Shown piece by piece: positions 5,083-21,873 of a DNA stretch of 32,517 nucleotides. The notes under the pieces are model-generated. The model was not told where the DNA came from. It ran no database searches and saw only the letters and a list, made by a program, of their open reading frames with translations. Source of the DNA: Blastopirellula sp. (GTDB lineage Bacteria; Planctomycetota; Planctomycetia; Pirellulales; Pirellulaceae); the NCBI GenBank assembly GCA_002701545.1, contig NZVR01000158.1, positions 1 to 32,517 on the forward strand, written 5' to 3'. Position 1 is the stretch's first letter, and each line of letters opens with the position of its first letter. Position numbers and translations under genes: made by a program.

Positions 5083-7377
5083 TCAAGTCCAGCTTAAATC
5101 ATGTTTGGACAACGGTAGATCACGCACACGCTGGCCTGTGGCGGCAAAGATTGCGTTGCACAGCGCCGGTGCGAATGAGGGTACGGGAGTTTCGCCGACT
5201 CCAGCCGGAGGTTCCGTGCTGGGGACGATGTCCACGAAGATTTTCTGTGGGGCGTCCTGCATGGTCGTGACCGAGAAGGTATCGAAATTCGACTCGTTGG
5301 CTTGGCCCTTGGTAAAGGTGATTTCGCCGTAACGTGCCTGCGAGGTGGCCATAATTGCGGCCCCTTCGACCTGGGCTCGCACGCGGTCTGGGCTGACGAT
5401 CGTGCCGGCGTCGAGTGCCACCCATACTTGAGGGATGTGCAGCGTGCCGTCTTGTTGCACCTCGACCTCGACCACGTGCGCCGCATACCCGAGAAAAGCG
5501 CGGCAACAGGCGATTCCCAGCCCACGTCCGCGAGGCAAGTCTGCAGATCTCTCCCACTGGGCGGCGGTAGCAACGCGACGTAGGACTTGTTTCAGCCGGG
5601 CGATGTCATAGGGATAGCTTTCGGGGGAAGCACCTCGATTGGATAGTCGAGCAGCTTTCAGGTCGATGTGACGGTCTTCGCCCAAGAGTTCCAGCAGGTA
5701 TGCGTACGAATCGCGCCCTGCGGCATGTGCTAATTCGTCGGCGAACGAGCCGACGGCGAAATTCTGTTGGATATGGCACACCGAGCGAAGCCAGCCGATG
5801 CGCACGTGCGCCTTGGCGGCGCCTGTTTCGATTTGCAAGTGAGGGATATCGAAAGGCAGGTCGGTCAAACCCATTTCCACTTCGAATCCGGCAGGGGTTT
5901 GGGCAGCCGGGTTGAATGTTGACATGATCGTGGGGTAGGCGACGCGTTGCAGCCACGCTTCGGGTTTCCCTTTTTCGTCCAAGGCGGCTTGCGCATAGCA
6001 GGCCGAGATGGCGTGGAAGTAGTCATGTTGGACATCATCTTCTCGAGTCCACGTAACGTGAACGGGGCGGCCTGTCTGACGTGACAGGATCGCTGCTTCG
6101 ACACAATAGTCGGGCTTGCTTTTGCGGCCGAAGCCGGCTCCCAAGAGCGTGACTTCGACGAGTACATCGTCAGGCTTCATTTGCAGAACGGGAGCGACTG
6201 CCTGTTGGACTGCTTGAGGATTCTGTGTGGCGGTGAGAATACGACACGAGGTCACCTTGCCGGATGCGTCCGTCTTTACATCGGCTACGGCGCAGGGTGT
6301 TTCCATCGGGGCGTGAGCCAGATGCGGCACGGAATATTCGGCCGAGATGAGTCGCTGGGAACGTTCCAGGGTCGCTTTGGCGTCACCGTGGCGACGCACC
6401 ACTTGTCCCGGCTTGCGCGCGGTCTCGCGAAGCGTCTTGGCAAACGTCTCGGTATCGTAACTGGCGTTGGCACCGTGGTCCCATTCGACATTGAGTGCGT
6501 CGCGACCTTGCCAGGCAGCCCAGGTGCTGTCGGCACAGACAGCGACACCACCGAGCGGTTTGAAATGCGGGGCGCCTCGAAATCCCGGTATCTCGACAAT
6601 TTCGACCACTCCGGGGATCTGTTTGGCTGCCGCGGCGTCGAAGCCTTGGACTTTTCCACCGACCACGGGGGGGCGGGCAATGACGGCATACAGTTGATTG
6701 TCGATGCGGGCGTCGATCCCGTAGATGGCTCGCCCGGTCAGGATATCATCGAGATCGGTGACCGGCGCGTCTTTGCCAATGTAACGCCATTTGTCACGTG
6801 GCTTGAGACGCAACGTTTCCGGCTTGGGGACTTCCAGTTGACGTGCCAGTGGTGCCAGAGTTCCGAAGTCCAGTACGCGTTGGCTATCTCGATGTTTGAC
6901 TTGGTGATTTGTGGCATAGCAGGTTTCAGCGTCCACTTGCCATTTTTTTGCCGCGGCTTGTTCGAGCATCGTGCGCGCTGTGGCGCCGGCCACACGCATC
7001 CGCTGAAAGAAGAAGCGAATGCTGTTCGAGCCGTCGGTATTCTGGTCGCCCAGGCGTTTGTCCCCCGGAGCCTGTTCGATGGAGACGCGATTCCAGTCTG
7101 CTTCCAACTCGTCCGCCACGACGCGCGGAAGCCCAGTGCGAATGCCTGTTCCCATTTCAGAGCGATGCGCGATGATCGTCACTTGACCCGTGGGGGCAAT
7201 CGAGACAAAGAAATCGGGAGCAAAGTTGTCGACTTGATCCTCTTGGGCGGCGGCCACTGTGGCATCCTGCCCGGCGCCGACACGTACCATCAATACGAAC
7301 GAACCGGCGGTCAAGCTGGTGAGAAACGTGCGGCGTGAAGGACCGGCACCCGGGTGAGTGGAAGATGGGTTGCTCAT
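5083..7377 (-). CDS. Molybdopterin-binding large subunit of xanthine dehydrogenase-family hydroxylase (IorB-like)
   Basis: The 764-residue catalytic subunit of a molybdenum hydroxylase, which inserts water-derived oxygen into an aldehyde or N-heterocycle; the substrate cannot be told from sequence. A twin-arginine signal ([17 protein letters not shown], residues 14-30) predicts folded export, as in isoquinoline 1-oxidoreductase-type enzymes. [13 protein letters not shown] and [12 protein letters not shown] belong to the cofactor-binding domains, and [21 protein letters not shown] near the C-terminus carries the conserved catalytic Glu. The frame is open to 7455, but ATG 7377 is chosen because it overlaps the stop of the upstream [2Fe-2S] subunit gene as ATGA and places the Tat motif near the N-terminus. 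Confidence 0.9.
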
Positions 7378-7835
7378 TGGGCTTGAATCTCCTTCGCGGC
7401 CGTTTTGATTGCGGCTCGAATGCGCGGATACGTACCACAGCGGCAGATGTTCCACATTTCGGTTTCGATCTCCTCATCCGACGGATCGTTATTGGCTTTG
7501 AGCATGGCGGCGGCCATCATCATTTGCCCTACCTGGCAATAACCGCATTGGGGCACATGGTGTTCCTTCCACGCTTTCTGGACCGGATGGGTGCCGTCTT
7601 CGGAAAGGCCCTCGATCGTCGTGACGGGCGACTCGCCCACATCGCTTAGAGGTGTGACGCAAGCTTGCATCGCTTGCCCCTGAACATGGACGGTACAGGC
7701 GCCGCATTCAGAGACGCCACAGCCGTATTTGGTGCCGGTCAGGCCCAGGTGGTCACGGAGTACCCAGAGTAACGGCGTATCTTCCGGTACGCCCTCGACG
7801 GAATGTGTCTGGCCATTCACTCGGATCGTTTTCAT
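7374..7835 (-). CDS. [2Fe-2S] subunit of molybdenum hydroxylase (IorA-like)
   Basis: The 153-residue electron-transfer subunit paired with the large subunit downstream. The N-terminal plant-ferredoxin-type cluster uses C39, C44, C47 ([15 protein letters not shown]) and C59. The C-terminal helical domain binds the second cluster with C97, C100 ([10 protein letters not shown]), C131 and C133 ([14 protein letters not shown]). The lack of a Tat signal is usual, since this subunit travels with its partner. ATG 7835 is preferred over the longer open frame to 7937, because GGAAAG precedes it and the longer version would translate a 12-bp tandem repeat. It overlaps the large-subunit gene by 4 nt. Confidence 0.93.
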
Positions 7836-7870
7836 GTCGCTTTCCGGTGACAGAGGAATCTGACGAGAGT

Positions 7871-7906
7871 CAAACTGGTATGCAAACTGGTATGCAAACT
7901 GGTATG
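7871..7906. repeat. Three perfect tandem copies of a 12-bp unit
   Basis: CAAACTGGTATG is repeated at 7871-7882, 7883-7894 and 7895-7906, between the MobA-like gene and the [2Fe-2S] subunit gene. It lies about 36 nt upstream of the latter's start, where it could affect transcription or leader length. There are no spacers between units, so this is not a CRISPR array. Confidence 0.95.
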
Positions 7907-7951
7907 GGCGGAGGGCCCCAGTCAGTGCTCCGCACATTCTAGCGGAATCCG

Positions 7952-8563
7952 CTAGCCGTGGTGGTTTTTGTATACCATTTGATACTCAGCGGGAGTATCG
8001 ACATCGGTGACGCGGTCCGCTGCCGGGAAGGGGACGATGGTCTGCGGGTGGCGAGCGACCAGTGCGTCGACGCCCTGGTCTGCTGTCAGGGTGTGAATCT
8101 CGCCAGTTAGTGGCCAGGGGAGGAGTACGGGATGCCCCTGTTTGCCGCCAAATTGGGGGACAATCAGGTGGGTTGGGTCTTTCGGAGCGGCCAGCAAGGG
8201 AGGGATGATTCCTTGTTGCAGGGTGGGGAGATCGGCCGGAGCGATAAAACAATGGTCTGTCGCGGATGGCTCATAGTGTTGCTCCAAAAAGCGTAGCCCG
8301 GCCTGCACCGAGGCTTTCATATCGGCCGGCGCTTCGGAAGGTTGTACGATCGCCACGGGCCACTGGGAACAAACGCGCTGCAACTCGACGTCGTCCCGTC
8401 TTATGACTACAACTGTCTCTGTGACGTCGCTTGTTGTCCACACTTGCAGGACATGGTCCATGACCGTTTTGCCCTGCCATGGTAGCAGCAATTTGGGCTT
8501 GCCCATGCGGCGGCTGTGTCCCGCTGCAGGCACGATCGTGTAGCATCGATTTGATTCACTCAT
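7952..8563 (-). CDS. MobA-like nucleotidyltransferase (molybdenum cofactor cytidylyl/guanylyl transferase type)
   Basis: A 203-residue GT-A-fold NTP transferase. The N-terminal [19 protein letters not shown] is the nucleotide-binding loop of the MobA/MocA group, and [10 protein letters not shown] plus DVDTPAEYQ supply the metal-binding Asp residues. Enzymes of this group attach CMP or GMP to molybdopterin for xanthine dehydrogenase-family enzymes; CMP transfer (MocA) is the likelier role next to this hydroxylase, by inference. ATG 8563 is used; an in-frame GTG at 8575 is possible. The stop is about 115 nt ahead of the [2Fe-2S] subunit start, in the same direction. The divergent xdhC start is only 29 bp away. 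Confidence 0.85.
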
Positions 8564-8592
8564 CCCAGGTATCACGTAATCAGGTAGACCGG

Positions 8593-9414
8593 ATGACTTA
8601 TGATGTGATACAGCATGCTCGGTCGCTTGGAAAGCTGCTGGAAGCGGAAGTACCTTTTGCCATCGTCACGTTGCTGGATATTCGGGGCAGCGCGCCGCAG
8701 GTTACCGGTGCCAAAGCCATTGTGACGGCCGAGGGGATTGCGTGCGGTACGGTCGGTGGTGGCAAGATCGAAGCGGCTGCCATTCAACGGGCTCAACAGC
8801 TGCTGGAAAAACGTAGTGGTACGACGTGTGAATTGCTGACCTGGAATCTGCAAACCGACGTGGGGATGACGTGTGGCGGCGAAGTGAAGTTGTTTTTCGA
8901 AGTCCATGCGAATGCGGATTGGCAGGTGACGGTGTTCGGAGCGGGGCACGTTGCGCAGGCATTGATTCCGCTACTGCTGCAACTGAATTGTCATGTTACT
9001 TGTATCGATACACGCGCCGATTGGCTGGCCAAATTGCCAGACCATCTCAAGTTGCGAAAATGGTGTTTGGATCCGATGGTCAGTGGAGTGGCCAGGCAGC
9101 CTGAGCACGCGTTTTTCGTCTTGATGAGCCAGGGCCACATGACCGATCTCCCCGTACTCGAAGAGATCTTGACGACGCGTTCCGCTCCGTACGTCGGTGT
9201 CATCGGCAGCGATCAGAAAGCCAGTGTCCTGCGTCGTGATCTGTTGGACCGGGGAGTGGCGACAGAGAAAATCGACTCATATCATTGCCCCATTGGTCTA
9301 CCGTTAGGTAATAATACCCCTGCAGAAATCTCGATCAGCATCGTCAGTCAATTGATTCAGCGACGCGATGAACTTGGGATCCTAAAGCATAAGGCGAAAC
9401 AGTTTTTGAAGTGA
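8593..9414 (+). CDS. xdhC: XdhC/CoxI-family molybdenum hydroxylase maturation protein
   Basis: A 273-residue accessory protein that binds molybdenum cofactor and helps sulfurate and insert it into xanthine dehydrogenase-family enzymes. The N-terminal XdhC/CoxI domain shows DIRGSAPQVTGAKAIV and GTVGGGKIEAAAI. The C-terminal Rossmann domain starts VTVFGAGHVAQALIPLLL with an acidic residue ending the second strand (CIDTRADW). It also shows YVGVIGSDQK and CPIGLPLGNNTPAEISISI. ATG 8593 is chosen over the open frame to 8479, which would run through the divergent MobA-like gene. It sits back to back with that gene, completing a molybdenum hydroxylase set. Confidence 0.9.
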   Translation: MTYDVIQHARSLGKLLEAEVPFAIVTLLDIRGSAPQVTGAKAIVTAEGIACGTVGGGKIEAAAIQRAQQLLEKRSGTTCELLTWNLQTDVGMTCGGEVKLFFEVHANADWQVTVFGAGHVAQALIPLLLQLNCHVTCIDTRADWLAKLPDHLKLRKWCLDPMVSGVARQPEHAFFVLMSQGHMTDLPVLEEILTTRSAPYVGVIGSDQKASVLRRDLLDRGVATEKIDSYHCPIGLPLGNNTPAEISISIVSQLIQRRDELGILKHKAKQFLK

Positions 9415-17239: not shown

Positions 17240-18253
17240 TTACCACTGGACGTCACAGCCCGGCAGTTTTTGTTGCAGTCGTCCGACCCCGTCGTCGGTG
17301 ACGCGCGTGAAGCGAAGTGATAACTGTTCGAGATTCGACAGCTGCTGAAGTTGCTCCAGGCCGACATCGGAAATGCTGGTTCCGGAGAGGCTCAGGGTTT
17401 TCAGTTTTTTGAGTTTGCTGACGTACTGCAATCCCTCATCGGTGATGCGCGTCATGCCAATGCTGAGCACTTCCAGGTTTTCCAGTGGTTGGAGGCTTTG
17501 CAACCCTTGGTTGGTCACCACGGTGTTGTCCGCAACGATCACCTTGAGTTTCTCGGCGGCTGCCAGGGCTGCCAGGCCTTTGTCTGTAAGCTCCGTGCCG
17601 ACCAGACTAATGGTGTCGAGTTGAGGTAGCTTGGAGACGTGGGCCAAACTACGGTCTGTGATTTGTGTGCCCAGCAAGTCGAGATGTTCGATGTTTTGGA
17701 GTTGGCAGATTTTCTCCACCCCAACATCCGTGATCCGCGAGTTGCTCAAAGAGAGACGCTTGAGACGCGGAAGATTCAGCAAGTGTTCCAGGGTGGCGTC
17801 GGTGGTTTGCGTACCGCTGATGCCGACGACTTCGAGACGGGAGAGGTTTTCTAGATAGGCCAAGCCACGTCCGGTGACGCGCGTGGTGTTCAGGTTCACC
17901 GCGCGCAGCTTGGACAACGTTGCCAGATGCTGTAACCCTTCGTCACTGATCGAAGTGTATCCAAGATTGACCAAGCCGAGTTCGGTCAGCGGCGTCAGGG
18001 TAGCGAGGTCTTCATTGGTGACTTTTTTCGAGGCGGCAAACGAGACTTGGTTCACGGGGGTTTCCGGGACCGAGCGATCCATCTCGAATGTTCCCCCCAG
18101 CGCTTGGATTCGCGTCAGAGCCTGTTGGACTGCGGGATCCGGTTGTGGGGGCGGATTGGTTGCCGGAGTGTCCTGGCCCGCTACCGTGTGAACCGAGGCG
18201 AGTACACAGGCAATCAGCCAGCAGGTGATCGGCTTGATGTGACGCTGGATCAT
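17240..18253 (-). CDS. Exported leucine-rich-repeat protein
   Basis: A 337-residue protein. Residues 1-26 form a signal peptide (WLIACVLASVHTVAG). From about residue 80 to the end there are about ten 24-residue repeats with the pattern L-x-x-L-x-x-L-x-L-x-x-T-x-I-(S/T)-D-x-G-L, for example LKTLSLSGTSISDVGLEQLQ. It ends with a cap LQQKLPGCDVQW. This bacterial LRR type is abundant in planctomycetes and is probably a protein-binding surface at or outside the cytoplasmic membrane; the ligand is unknown. The ATG overlaps the stop of the upstream gene as ATGA, so the two are translationally coupled. Confidence 0.88.
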   Translation of the reverse strand: MIQRHIKPITCWLIACVLASVHTVAGQDTPATNPPPQPDPAVQQALTRIQALGGTFEMDRSVPETPVNQVSFAASKKVTNEDLATLTPLTELGLVNLGYTSISDEGLQHLATLSKLRAVNLNTTRVTGRGLAYLENLSRLEVVGISGTQTTDATLEHLLNLPRLKRLSLSNSRITDVGVEKICQLQNIEHLDLLGTQITDRSLAHVSKLPQLDTISLVGTELTDKGLAALAAAEKLKVIVADNTVVTNQGLQSLQPLENLEVLSIGMTRITDEGLQYVSKLKKLKTLSLSGTSISDVGLEQLQQLSNLEQLSLRFTRVTDDGVGRLQQKLPGCDVQW

Positions 18254-20034
18254 GGAATCTTGCCGCTTAAAACATTGTTAATATGTTCTCGGGCTTCCAT
18301 ATTCCCGAGAGTTGCCGATTTGCGAAACTGCTCGACGGCAGAGTCGGTACTTCCCGCGCGAGCGAGTGCAATGCCTAACAGGTTCAAGCACGTCGTATTT
18401 TGCTCGTCAATCTTCGTCGCTGCATGGAACGAGTGGACCGCTTCACTGGGCCGCTTTAAGTCGAGTAACAAAAGCCCCATTTGCACATGTGCCGGGAGCA
18501 GTTCGGGATTCATCTGAATCGCAATTGCCAGTTGTTTGCGCGCGTCTTCGGTGTTTCCTTGTTGGCGATAGACAGCCCCCAGGTTGGCATGCGGTTCGGG
18601 CCATTCAGGAGTCAGCTGAATGCACGCCTCGTAACGCCGCTTGGCCAGCGTGAGATCACCGGCTTGAATTTGCTTGTTCCCATCGTTGTAGAACAGGGTC
18701 GCCAACTCCGATGCGATTGCCGGAGCGATGGCATCTCGTGTCGAGAGGTCTGCAGCCAATCCGGCCAAGCGGAGCGCGTCTTCGCTGTTTCCCCGTTCTC
18801 GGAATGCGCCCACGAGTTCGGCGAGCACGGTGCCTGTCTGGCGTGGGTGCGCGAACCAGCGACCGGGGAAGGGAAACGCAAGCTTGGTGGTCGGCTCGGA
18901 TGACGACAGCGCCGCCGTATCTTGGAGCACTTGTTCGACCGAGACTTGTCCGGTGTAAATCACAGCCAACCGGCCGAATTCGTCGATCAGATAGCTTTTC
19001 GGTAACGCATTCGGTTGAGTTCTGAGCGAGATCAAGCATTCTTCGAAGGCGTCTAATTTGTCTACGAGCGCGGCATTGGCAGCGCCGGCTGCAAAGGGGA
19101 ACTTGAGTCGCTCGACCGCTTGTTTCGCTGATTCGACCGTGGTTCGATCGTCTCCCAGCCCATCAACGCTCAGGGCGACGACACGGAGCCCTGCCTCACG
19201 AATCTGCTCCTGTTCCAACGCCGTTTGCTTCATTTCGACCAGACAAGGCTCGCACCAAGTGGCGAAGAAGCTGAGCCAGACGGGGCCTGATCCGGAATTC
19301 GGTAGTGTTGCTGGCGAGCCGCTGAAATCGGTGTAGTCGAGTCGGGGCAGAGGAATACGATCGGCTAAGGGAAGACGCGTGGTTGCTGAATCCAACTGGG
19401 TGGGCAAGCGTGAAGCTTCGAGGGTCACTGAGCGAGGGGCGGTTTGCCAAGCTTCGGCCTGGCCCGTTCCCTGCGTCAGGCGGAAACGCCCGTCCATCGT
19501 CACTCCGGTAAACGTTTCCCGCTGACCACCAGGCCACAGTACGGACACCGAATCCACCTGCTCTGCGTCACCCAGTCCAACATGCAGCCACTTGCTGCCT
19601 TGGCCAAGGTAGCCGTCGCCGGCACGGACGGTGCGAAGGAGTGTCTTGTCGCCATTTTGTATTTGCAGTTGAGCTCCGATCGCATCGCGGTTGCAAGCGG
19701 TACCCGTCAGGTGCAGGGCCAGGAAGTGTTGTTTGCCCGCCTGTTGTGCATCATTGCGGATAAATCGCAGTCGCGGTCCGGTGCGCCCGACCAGCCACAA
19801 ATCGAGATCGCCGTCGTGATCCCAGTCAACCGGCGCGATCGCTCGGCTATCGTCCAAGAAGTCAAATCCGGTGACCGCTGAGGCATTCGCAAAACGCGGT
19901 TGGCCCGTGTTCAGAAAACAGCAATTCCGTTCGTGCCCACTCCAGGAACCTCCGCTGTTGATCAAGTCCAGGATCTGACTCCAACCAGCCGAGTAATCGT
20001 CCGTGAGCTCTTCGGAAACAGGAGATTGCGACAC
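18250..20034 (-). CDS. ASPIC/UnbV - thioredoxin-like - TPR protein; possibly the C-terminal half of a UGA-interrupted gene
   Basis: Read from GTG 20034 this is 594 residues. An FG-GAP-like calcium loop (DWDHDGDLDLWL, about 70-81) is followed by an ASPIC/UnbV domain (about 117-178, IGAQLQIQNGDK, WLHVGLGDAEQVDSVSVLWPGG). A TlpA-like thioredoxin domain (about 228-375) has the redox motif CEPC at 261-264, and TPR repeats fill about 420-590. No signal peptide is visible although its domains are normally extracytoplasmic. It lies in the same frame as the upstream FG-GAP lipoprotein gene, separated only by its UGA and seven sense codons. The proposed GTG start has only a weak AGG and lies inside a hairpin. 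It is likely the C-terminal part of one protein. Confidence 0.8.
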   Translation of the reverse strand: MSQSPVSEELTDDYSAGWSQILDLINSGGSWSGHERNCCFLNTGQPRFANASAVTGFDFLDDSRAIAPVDWDHDGDLDLWLVGRTGPRLRFIRNDAQQAGKQHFLALHLTGTACNRDAIGAQLQIQNGDKTLLRTVRAGDGYLGQGSKWLHVGLGDAEQVDSVSVLWPGGQRETFTGVTMDGRFRLTQGTGQAEAWQTAPRSVTLEASRLPTQLDSATTRLPLADRIPLPRLDYTDFSGSPATLPNSGSGPVWLSFFATWCEPCLVEMKQTALEQEQIREAGLRVVALSVDGLGDDRTTVESAKQAVERLKFPFAAGAANAALVDKLDAFEECLISLRTQPNALPKSYLIDEFGRLAVIYTGQVSVEQVLQDTAALSSSEPTTKLAFPFPGRWFAHPRQTGTVLAELVGAFRERGNSEDALRLAGLAADLSTRDAIAPAIASELATLFYNDGNKQIQAGDLTLAKRRYEACIQLTPEWPEPHANLGAVYRQQGNTEDARKQLAIAIQMNPELLPAHVQMGLLLLDLKRPSEAVHSFHAATKIDEQNTTCLNLLGIALARAGSTDSAVEQFRKSATLGNMEAREHINNVLSGKIP

Positions 20035-20058
20035 GACCTGTCGCCAGAAAAAACTTCA
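20028..20058 (-). promoter_or_regulatory. In-frame UGA followed by SECIS-like hairpin (candidate selenocysteine site)
   Basis: On the minus strand UGA (20058-20056) is followed by 11 nt and then GCGACA-GGUCG-UGUCGC (20044-20028), a perfect 6-bp stem with a GGUCG loop starting 17 nt after the UGA. The E. coli fdhF SECIS has a comparable loop, GGUC closed by CA/UG, at nearly the same distance. The bulged U and lower stem of fdhF are not seen here. Reading through UGA gives DTDDL-Sec-SFFWRQVVSQSP with no frame change. Codon 606 counting from ATG 21873. Selenocysteine is a hypothesis; no sel gene is in the window. Confidence 0.5.
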
Positions 20059-21873
20059 CAAATCATCGGTGTCTGAACCAGTGACGAAGCCGTTGGCGAC
20101 CAGCAAGTCCTCACGGCCATCATTATTGATATCGACAAAGTTAGAAGACCATGCCCAGCGCCCCAGTGTGACGGCGGCCGTTTCACTTACGTCGCGGAAT
20201 GTGCCATCACCGACATTTTCAAAGAGCGAATTCCCGCGAGCGTGACGCTGGAATTCTTGACGAACATCGGCACCGGCGAGGGACTGAAAACGATCTTGAA
20301 ATGCGATCCGCAATCCGGCCGACGAGAACATGTTGCCGACATACAAGTCCATTTTTCCATCTTGATTGTAGTCGCCCCAGGAAACGGACATGCCTGCCGC
20401 AATGTCTTCGACCCCCGCTTGGGCAGCGACGTCGGTGAATTTTCCGCCGTCGTTCCGATAGAGATTGTTCCGTCCGAAGTCATTGGCGACGTACAGATCC
20501 GGGTCACCGTCCGAATCGTAATCTTCCCAGCTGGCCGCGAAACTCCAGCGTCGATTGTTTTGATCCAGCCCGACGCGACTGGTGACATCCACGAACTGGC
20601 AGTCGCCGTCGTTGCGTAACAAGACGTTTTCGCCACCATTGTTCGCGTCGTGATAGGGGACTGGGCCACTGCTCTCATTGTCCGACAGAAAACGCTCGCC
20701 ATAATCGACCACGTAGATGTCCAGGTCTCCGTCCAGATCGTAGTCGGCAGCGGCCAGAGACCCGGGATCCCCAGTCGGACGAAAAACGGAACGCTCGACA
20801 TACCGGTCGCCTTCGTGGGACATGATCACGACCATCTCATTCAATGCCAGGACCAAGTCTTGATCTTGGTCGTTGTCGAGGTCCACCAGCAGAGCACCAC
20901 GTGAACGGTCCAGCCAGTCGACTCCCATGCTGGCCGCAGCCTCGGTGACAGAGCCATCCTGGTTCTGCAAGTAAAGTCGGTTAGGTAGCCCCGCTGGTTG
21001 GCAGACATAAATGTCATCCAAGCCATCGCCATTGATGTCTCCGACCGTAATTCCGTGATGGCCATAAGGATACACACCGTACTGGGACTGAATGCCGGTC
21101 CGCCAGTAATCGATTCCACGCATGAACTGGTCGCGGAAATCGGGCTCATTGCGGAAGACGGATTCTGTGCAGTCAGCGAACAACGTCGCTTCGGGGCCCG
21201 TGCCCAGGACCTCCTCGAAGTCCCGGCTGCGAACGCTCAGCAGACGCGGGACGTCGTCTTCCGAGTGTCCGTTCTGCCAGACACAACTCCATATGGCAGA
21301 TTGCTGAACGGTGTCGCTGGTGCCTCTCCCGCTGGCCTGGTACACCACGTCGGTGGCGACCGTGTCGTCGCCAGCCAACACGCTGATGACTTTGAATTTG
21401 ACATGGATGTCGGTGCGGCCGGCGAGAGGTTTGGCGAGTTGCTGTAAAGCGATCTGTAAGCCATTTGGGCCCGTTTGTTGCGCGTCGTCGGCAACCTCGC
21501 CACGCTCGACTTTCAGCAGCGGATCAGCAAAGGCGACCGTCATTTGCTGGGGACGAAGCTGACCGATTGTGGCTGTCGGCAGCGCGACTTCAGCCAACTG
21601 GCTGGCGTCCATCGCATCGGCTTGCTGCAGCGCATCACGGATCCGGTGTAGTTGCTCACCAACGGCACTGGCGAACGCTTCGGTCTCCCAATCCGTTTCC
21701 TCTTCTGCGGGCTGCTCTGTGACTTGGGGAGGCGAGTCATTGGGGCCAGGCCCGATTTGCAAAGGCTTGGCCGGTTGACAGCCAGAGCAACCGGACAGGG
21801 TGACCGCGAAGCCGCAGCAAAGTAGTAAGGAGAGCGTCAGCTGAGTGCGCGTCTGAGGTGCCTGCATGACCAT
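20056..21873 (-). CDS. FG-GAP/VCBS-repeat lipoprotein (CRTAC1-like); possibly the N-terminal half of a UGA-interrupted gene
   Basis: 605 residues up to the UGA. The N-terminus has a lipoprotein signal with lipobox LSGC at about 26-29, so it is predicted to be exported and lipid-anchored. A variable region follows, then from about residue 280 at least six FG-GAP-type calcium loops: DINGDGLDDIYV, DLDNDQDQDLVLA, DYDLDGDLDIYV, DYDSDGDPDLYV, DYNQDGKMDLYV and DINNDGREDLLV. These build an integrin-like beta-propeller. ATG 21873 is preferred over the TTG at 21900, which lacks a Shine-Dalgarno. The propeller stops abruptly before the UGA, and its usual ASPIC/UnbV partner domain lies directly after it in frame. 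Confidence 0.85.
   Translation of the reverse strand: MVMQAPQTRTQLTLSLLLCCGFAVTLSGCSGCQPAKPLQIGPGPNDSPPQVTEQPAEEETDWETEAFASAVGEQLHRIRDALQQADAMDASQLAEVALPTATIGQLRPQQMTVAFADPLLKVERGEVADDAQQTGPNGLQIALQQLAKPLAGRTDIHVKFKVISVLAGDDTVATDVVYQASGRGTSDTVQQSAIWSCVWQNGHSEDDVPRLLSVRSRDFEEVLGTGPEATLFADCTESVFRNEPDFRDQFMRGIDYWRTGIQSQYGVYPYGHHGITVGDINGDGLDDIYVCQPAGLPNRLYLQNQDGSVTEAAASMGVDWLDRSRGALLVDLDNDQDQDLVLALNEMVVIMSHEGDRYVERSVFRPTGDPGSLAAADYDLDGDLDIYVVDYGERFLSDNESSGPVPYHDANNGGENVLLRNDGDCQFVDVTSRVGLDQNNRRWSFAASWEDYDSDGDPDLYVANDFGRNNLYRNDGGKFTDVAAQAGVEDIAAGMSVSWGDYNQDGKMDLYVGNMFSSAGLRIAFQDRFQSLAGADVRQEFQRHARGNSLFENVGDGTFRDVSETAAVTLGRWAWSSNFVDINNDGREDLLVANGFVTGSDTDDL

Follow-up and report, generated by a model that had tools for sequence, protein, structure and literature searches.

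A conserved in-frame UGA very probably encodes selenocysteine in a large CRTAC1-like lipoprotein of Blastopirellula

We conclude that the window, by which we mean the whole 32,517-nucleotide stretch of DNA analyzed here, almost certainly carries one selenoprotein gene at positions 18250 to 21873 of the minus strand, in which UGA606 is decoded as selenocysteine (Sec) within a single protein. We read the gene in this way because its UGA falls in a column conserved as UGA or Cys among homologues, is followed by a hairpin that appears to be under selection, and occurs in a genome encoding SelA, SelB, SelC, and SelD. The initial annotation had described two minus-strand ORFs in one frame, split by a single UGA and the codons for SFFWRQV, and had inferred one protein of ~1207 residues with Sec606; the sequence and its translation agree with that layout, and the three observations above support the inference. 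From an ATG at 21873, the frame gives 605 residues before the UGA and 601 after it. The UGA (20058-20056) is followed by seven sense codons and then by a GTG at 20034, and the minus-strand junction reads GATTTG TGA AGT TTT TTC TGG CGA CAG GTC GTG TCG CAA.

The predicted product is a lipoprotein comprising an N-terminal domain, a CRTAC1-like FG-GAP propeller, an ASPIC domain, a ResA/TlpA-like thioredoxin domain, and TPRs. Reading the translation by eye, we assigned a putative signal peptide to residues 1 to 29 (21787-21873, minus strand, as are all features of the gene) with a lipobox, LSGC, at residues 26 to 29. Pfam places FG-GAP_3 in seven stretches of the protein, UnbV_ASPIC at residues 731 to 795 (19489-19683; PF07593, E = 5e-17), AhpC-TSA in the thioredoxin domain at residues 845 to 970 (18964-19341), whose CxxC is formed by Cys874 and Cys877 (19243-19254), and TPR families at about residues 1065 to 1187 (18313-18681). 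The FG-GAP repeats and the ASPIC domain exceed Pfam cut-offs and occur together with a CRTAC1 fold, mouse CRTAC1 (9etn) being the best PDB fold match (E = 1.3e-26, TM = 0.73 on target) and the CRTAC1 profile matching the protein at E = 5.9e-30. The propeller and the ASPIC domain are common to both proteins, whereas the bacterial one adds the N-terminal, thioredoxin, and TPR domains. Furthermore, the CRTAC1 profile aligns with the regions flanking the Sec stretch and leaves the stretch itself unaligned, and Sec therefore apparently lies in an insertion. In an AlphaFold2 model of residues 55 to 1010, made with 42 homologues and with Sec entered as Cys (mean pLDDT 90.4, pTM 0.92), residue 606 (model residue 552) is the second in a helix spanning model residues 551 to 562, and Sec606 thus appears to sit at a helix start within the propeller insertion. 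The next PDB fold matches after CRTAC1 are ResA/TlpA thioredoxins, which share the thioredoxin fold and its CxxC; unlike in those oxidoreductases, however, the domain is here the C-terminal module of a larger protein, and Sec lies outside it. A viral fold library returned 10 matches (E <= 0.001) that by name and shape are generic propeller, thioredoxin-like, or repeat proteins, some of them unnamed, and a search of phage records with the downstream half only returned no match.

The search for homologues covered the genome of the window and those of 59 relatives, 60 in all, with 11 candidates scored in each. At least 50 matches, the window counted, had E < 1e-140, each with exactly one internal TGA, and the read-through frames among the matches listed were about 1100 to 1600 residues long. 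We aligned 93 loci to the window, 86 from this search and the rest from other matches in the same genomes. Strong matches with the motif DL-U-SFFWRQVVSQSP (class A) had TGA at the window column in 50 of 50 aligned loci, and shorter proteins of about 830 residues with the motif DG-U-x-C-x-W (class B) had it at the same column in 22 of 22. Cys occupied the column in six of the 93 loci (class C, C-x-x-[FY]-W), while the remaining 15, which are distant FG-GAP/ASPIC proteins, had another residue or a gap. In a scan of named-species genomes, the best 80 of 201 relatives were compared: 62 were class A, 61 of them with TGA, and the sole Cys form, L189 from Bryobacterales, had TGC in the context DL-C-SFFWRRVVSES; the other 18, recorded as Bacteroidota, had other residues or gaps. 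As recorded, the 61 named UGA loci belong to Planctomycetota, Verrucomicrobiota, Acidobacteriota, one "Proteobacteria" MAG (L150), and one unplaced MAG (L162). The initial annotation had proposed aligning homologues across the junction, with Cys or UGA speaking for Sec and a stop or unrelated residues against it; the alignment returned UGA or Cys, and other residues appeared only in the distant FG-GAP/ASPIC proteins of the two sets.

The phylogeny, a quick midpoint-rooted tree only, shows classes A and B and the Cys class as separate groups, and it places the non-Sec L033 inside B and the long-branched L025 inside A. The window's own genome also holds a class B paralogue (L043, contig C81, 667-3162) of 832 residues including Sec, in which FG-GAP and ASPIC are present and neither a thioredoxin nor a TPR match was found. 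The three genomes in which class C genes L115 to L119 and L123 are found (G034, G039, and G044) also have class A genes with Sec, and the Cys and Sec forms thus coexist. One class B locus, L035 (G005, contig C168), contains a second in-frame TGA 149 codons upstream of the Sec codon, where the near homologue L032 reads SW; this may be an error, decay, or something else.

To decode UGA as Sec, bacteria require tRNA-Sec, SelB, and a hairpin closely following the codon. At 20044 to 20028 of the minus strand, the window has a SECIS-like hairpin, GCGACA-GGUCG-UGUCGC, with a perfect 6-bp stem and a GGUCG loop (20034-20038), 11 nt separating the UGA from the stem and 17 nt separating it from the loop, exactly the geometry that had first drawn attention to it. 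E. coli fdhF, encoding formate dehydrogenase H, likewise has a small hairpin after its UGA, and the proposed likeness of the loops holds in that the apical CAGGUC is identical, starting at nt 16 after the UGA in the window gene and at nt 17 in fdhF. The E. coli SECIS hairpin has a bulged U, whereas the window stem of 6 bp has no bulge and, as had also been conceded, no lower stem. The two products differ as well, that of the window being exported and multidomain, with no kinship to formate dehydrogenase seen. Rfam gave three matches for the stretch, all far below gathering scores and none of them a SECIS family.

Constraint on this hairpin is evident across 110 distinct class A sequences (50 from the relatives and 61 from the named set, one shared). 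These form 601 of 660 possible Watson-Crick pairs, compared with a mean of 383.4 (standard deviation 9.4, maximum 409) in 500 redraws from synonymous codons of the same locus, a control that treats the sequences as unrelated. All six pairs are formed in 97 sequences, five in 12, and four in 1, and the standard pairs, 646 in register, number no more than 445 when the partner is shifted by 1 to 3 bases. Changes on both sides are found for pairs 16-30 (3 cells), 18-28 (26), and 20-26 (5) and for none of the other three. Codon usage points the same way. In the 48 of 50 class A genes long enough to be read, the codon for the second Val after the UGA is invariably GTG (42 of 42 Val rows, entropy 0) and the Ser codon that follows is TCG in 40 of 42, while 28 fourfold columns elsewhere have a minimum entropy of 1.02 and a median of 1.74 bits. 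Altogether, these comparisons indicate that the class A hairpin is under selection. Class B has a different 6-bp hairpin, a few bases further from the UGA and complete in 19 of 22 loci, which is a weaker test because this hairpin varies little.

Absence of selA, selB, selC, and selD had been named as an observation that would count against Sec. All four were found in the window genome, a 7.8-Mb draft (93.4% complete, 8.55% contamination), as in bacterial selenoproteins of the SelB/SECIS kind. SelA (489 bits) adjoins SelB (369.5 bits) on contig C6, tRNA-Sec (71.3 bits; gathering score 47) is on C138 with the anticodon UCA as assigned by ARAGORN, and SelD (264 bits) is on C146, all of these contigs being other than that of the window. 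SelD makes up the latter portion of a 756-residue ORF (L067, 268-2538), the first part of which is, by eye, NADH dehydrogenase-like; fusions of NADH dehydrogenase and SelD are already known.

We also asked how the machinery is distributed among the 60 genomes, 20 of which were scored as carriers by DNA patterns for the class A and class B motifs. SelB exceeded its cut-off in 18 of the 20 carriers versus 13 of the 40 others (Fisher p = 2.1e-5), and SelA, at E <= 1e-40, was found in 19 of 20 versus 21 of 40 (p = 6.6e-4). A pattern match in G059 was dropped as a chance hit, its sequence being unlike the others and its genome having no SelA or SelB. In the two carriers G002 and G034, SelB was not over the cut-off, and both have tRNA-Sec above the gathering score; G002, with a class B UGA and neither SelA nor SelB over threshold, was considered as a counter-example and rejected on account of its tRNA-Sec (65.8 bits). 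G005 has SelA and SelB and no tRNA-Sec above the gathering score. For the 61 named Sec loci, SelB was over the cut-off in 14 of the 19 carrying genomes tested, and it was over the cut-off too in the genome of L189, the Cys form.

Within one genome, the layout could also come from two coupled genes, the first stopping at the UGA and the second starting at GTG 20034, and that codon is GTG in 94 of the 110 class A sequences. The codon is, however, something other than ATG, GTG, or TTG in 12 of 110 (CTG in 4, GCG in 4, and GTT, ACG, GTA, and GGG in one each), which shows that it is not a fixed start, whereas G occupies its paired third position in 108 of 110. The seven codons between the UGA and the GTG are conserved as protein, and the second part has no apparent signal peptide, as had been noted at the outset. 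Moreover, the stop at the column is never UAA or UAG; across class A and class B it is UGA in 133 of the 134 places examined, with Cys in the other. Taken together, these observations make two separate genes very improbable.

A nonsense mutation or sequencing error in one gene would also look like this if a single in-frame stop in a single sequence were all there was to explain. The same UGA recurs, however, in 71 other loci of the 93-locus alignment and in the 61 named loci, and it is followed by a hairpin under selection; the recurrence refutes this explanation, whose probability we regard as negligible. There is, finally, the prospect of a UGA read as Trp or Cys, or of leaky suppression, with which the continuing frame and the Cys found at the column in relatives would agree. 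Against it, UGA is also an ordinary stop, terminating 11 of the 24 listed window ORFs; the genome has tRNA-Sec (UCA) and SelB; and the constrained hairpin is lost in the Cys homologues, L189 and the six class C loci forming 1 to 2 of the six class A pairs. Insertion of another residue is thus scarcely credible, and we retain the reading of UGA606 as Sec in one protein.

What Sec606 does can be approached through the residues conserved around it. Trp lies four positions after the Sec column in all 105 class A, 22 class B, and 6 class C rows, and Asp two before Sec is invariant in class A. The cysteines that are candidate partners of this residue vary with the class. Of the 105 class A rows with Sec, 96 have Cys291 (codon 21001-21003) and 9 lack it, and it is found in 0 of 22 class B rows; all 22 class B rows have Cys at the second position after Sec, and 4 of 6 class C rows have Cys five after the column. 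Of 43 class A rows, 41 retain the first and 40 the second cysteine of the thioredoxin-domain CxxC. Judging from the alignments and the model, the chemistry is probably thiol/selenol redox. Sec606 would supply the reactive selenol of an exported enzyme, either a thiol/selenol oxidoreductase or a peroxidase; its selenenylsulfide partner would be class specific (Cys291 in class A, and in class B the UxC cysteine); and the fused thioredoxin domain of class A would re-reduce the oxidized Sec. This cycle is suggested by the helix-start Sec, the class-specific cysteines, and the fused CxxC domain, and we offer it tentatively as a whole, giving it slightly short of an even chance.

Alternatively, the protein may be a selenoprotein in which Sec is structural or metal binding rather than redox active. 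FG-GAP repeats bind metal ions, and the class A surroundings, including the invariant Asp two before Sec and the Trp four after it, could be taken in this sense. However, the modeled position of Sec at a helix start, a candidate partner cysteine specific to each class, and a fused thioredoxin domain with CxxC are all better suited to redox. We therefore consider a structural or metal-binding Sec unlikely, though by no means negligible, and prefer the redox assignment.

Recurrence of these genes across several phyla points to a selenoprotein family that has not been listed. A 2026 inventory covers 119 prokaryotic selenoprotein families (PMC13188914), and the family list in the part of that inventory available to us has no FG-GAP, ASPIC/UnbV, or CRTAC1 entry. 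Likewise, titles and abstract openings in the literature disclosed no matching family; sel genes and selenoprotein candidates in planctomycetes are treated in PMC4807772, parts of which were available to us and whose candidate table, outside this comparison, may hold an earlier mention. No NCBIfam model reached its cut-off for class A, among the best 25 of 28 matches, or for class B, among all matches. Gene finders that end at the UGA halve these genes, and a widespread family of large selenoproteins has seemingly been missed as a result.

The family may also be large. One genome, G004, has 22 class A pattern matches, all within open frames of at least 529 codons before and 188 to 761 after the Sec codon, and the hairpin has 6 of 6 pairs at 20 of these sites and 5 of 6 at 2. 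With L082, a class A member that the pattern missed, G004 has at least 23 class A genes, which may be set against the record of at least 46 selenoprotein genes, all families combined, in one bacterium according to the accessible portion of PMC12013277. In a sample of 246 genomes from the phylum, the class A pattern had matches in 32, some perhaps by chance; the reversed pattern gave 3 matches. Three pattern matches (G174, C110:2416; G204, C204:13998 and 20900) would read DF-U-T-H-[FY]-WRQ and may represent another Sec variant, in which Thr-His follows Sec.

On balance, we lean toward a large unlisted superfamily of exported selenoenzymes that share a CRTAC1-like propeller. It would comprise two or more Sec classes differing in hairpin and partner-Cys positions, have members in Planctomycetota, Verrucomicrobiota, and Acidobacteriota, and number at least 23 large paralogues in a single genome. 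If this is true, selenium chemistry would take place outside the cytoplasm on a scale that, to our knowledge, has no recorded precedent for one family. The majority of characterized selenoproteins have a thioredoxin fold, according to the available part of PMC13188914; here Sec would lie in a propeller insertion, not in the thioredoxin fold, which offers a testable case for the chemistry of ASPIC/UnbV propellers.

Apart from the two halves of class A genes, no neighboring gene cluster was found in more than 3 of the 21 loci compared for a conserved operon partner. A possible partner is the LRR gene (LRR by Pfam) immediately downstream at 17240 to 18253 of the minus strand, which shares 4 nt with the end of the selenoprotein gene; its cluster is found in 3 of the 21 loci, and a homologue adjoins the orthologue in L214 and L215. 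Elsewhere in the window, a group of genes at positions 5083 to 9414 includes one for a molybdopterin-binding hydroxylase subunit (Pfam MoCoBD), accompanied by what appear, by eye, to be a 2Fe-2S subunit, a MobA-like protein, and an XdhC-like protein.
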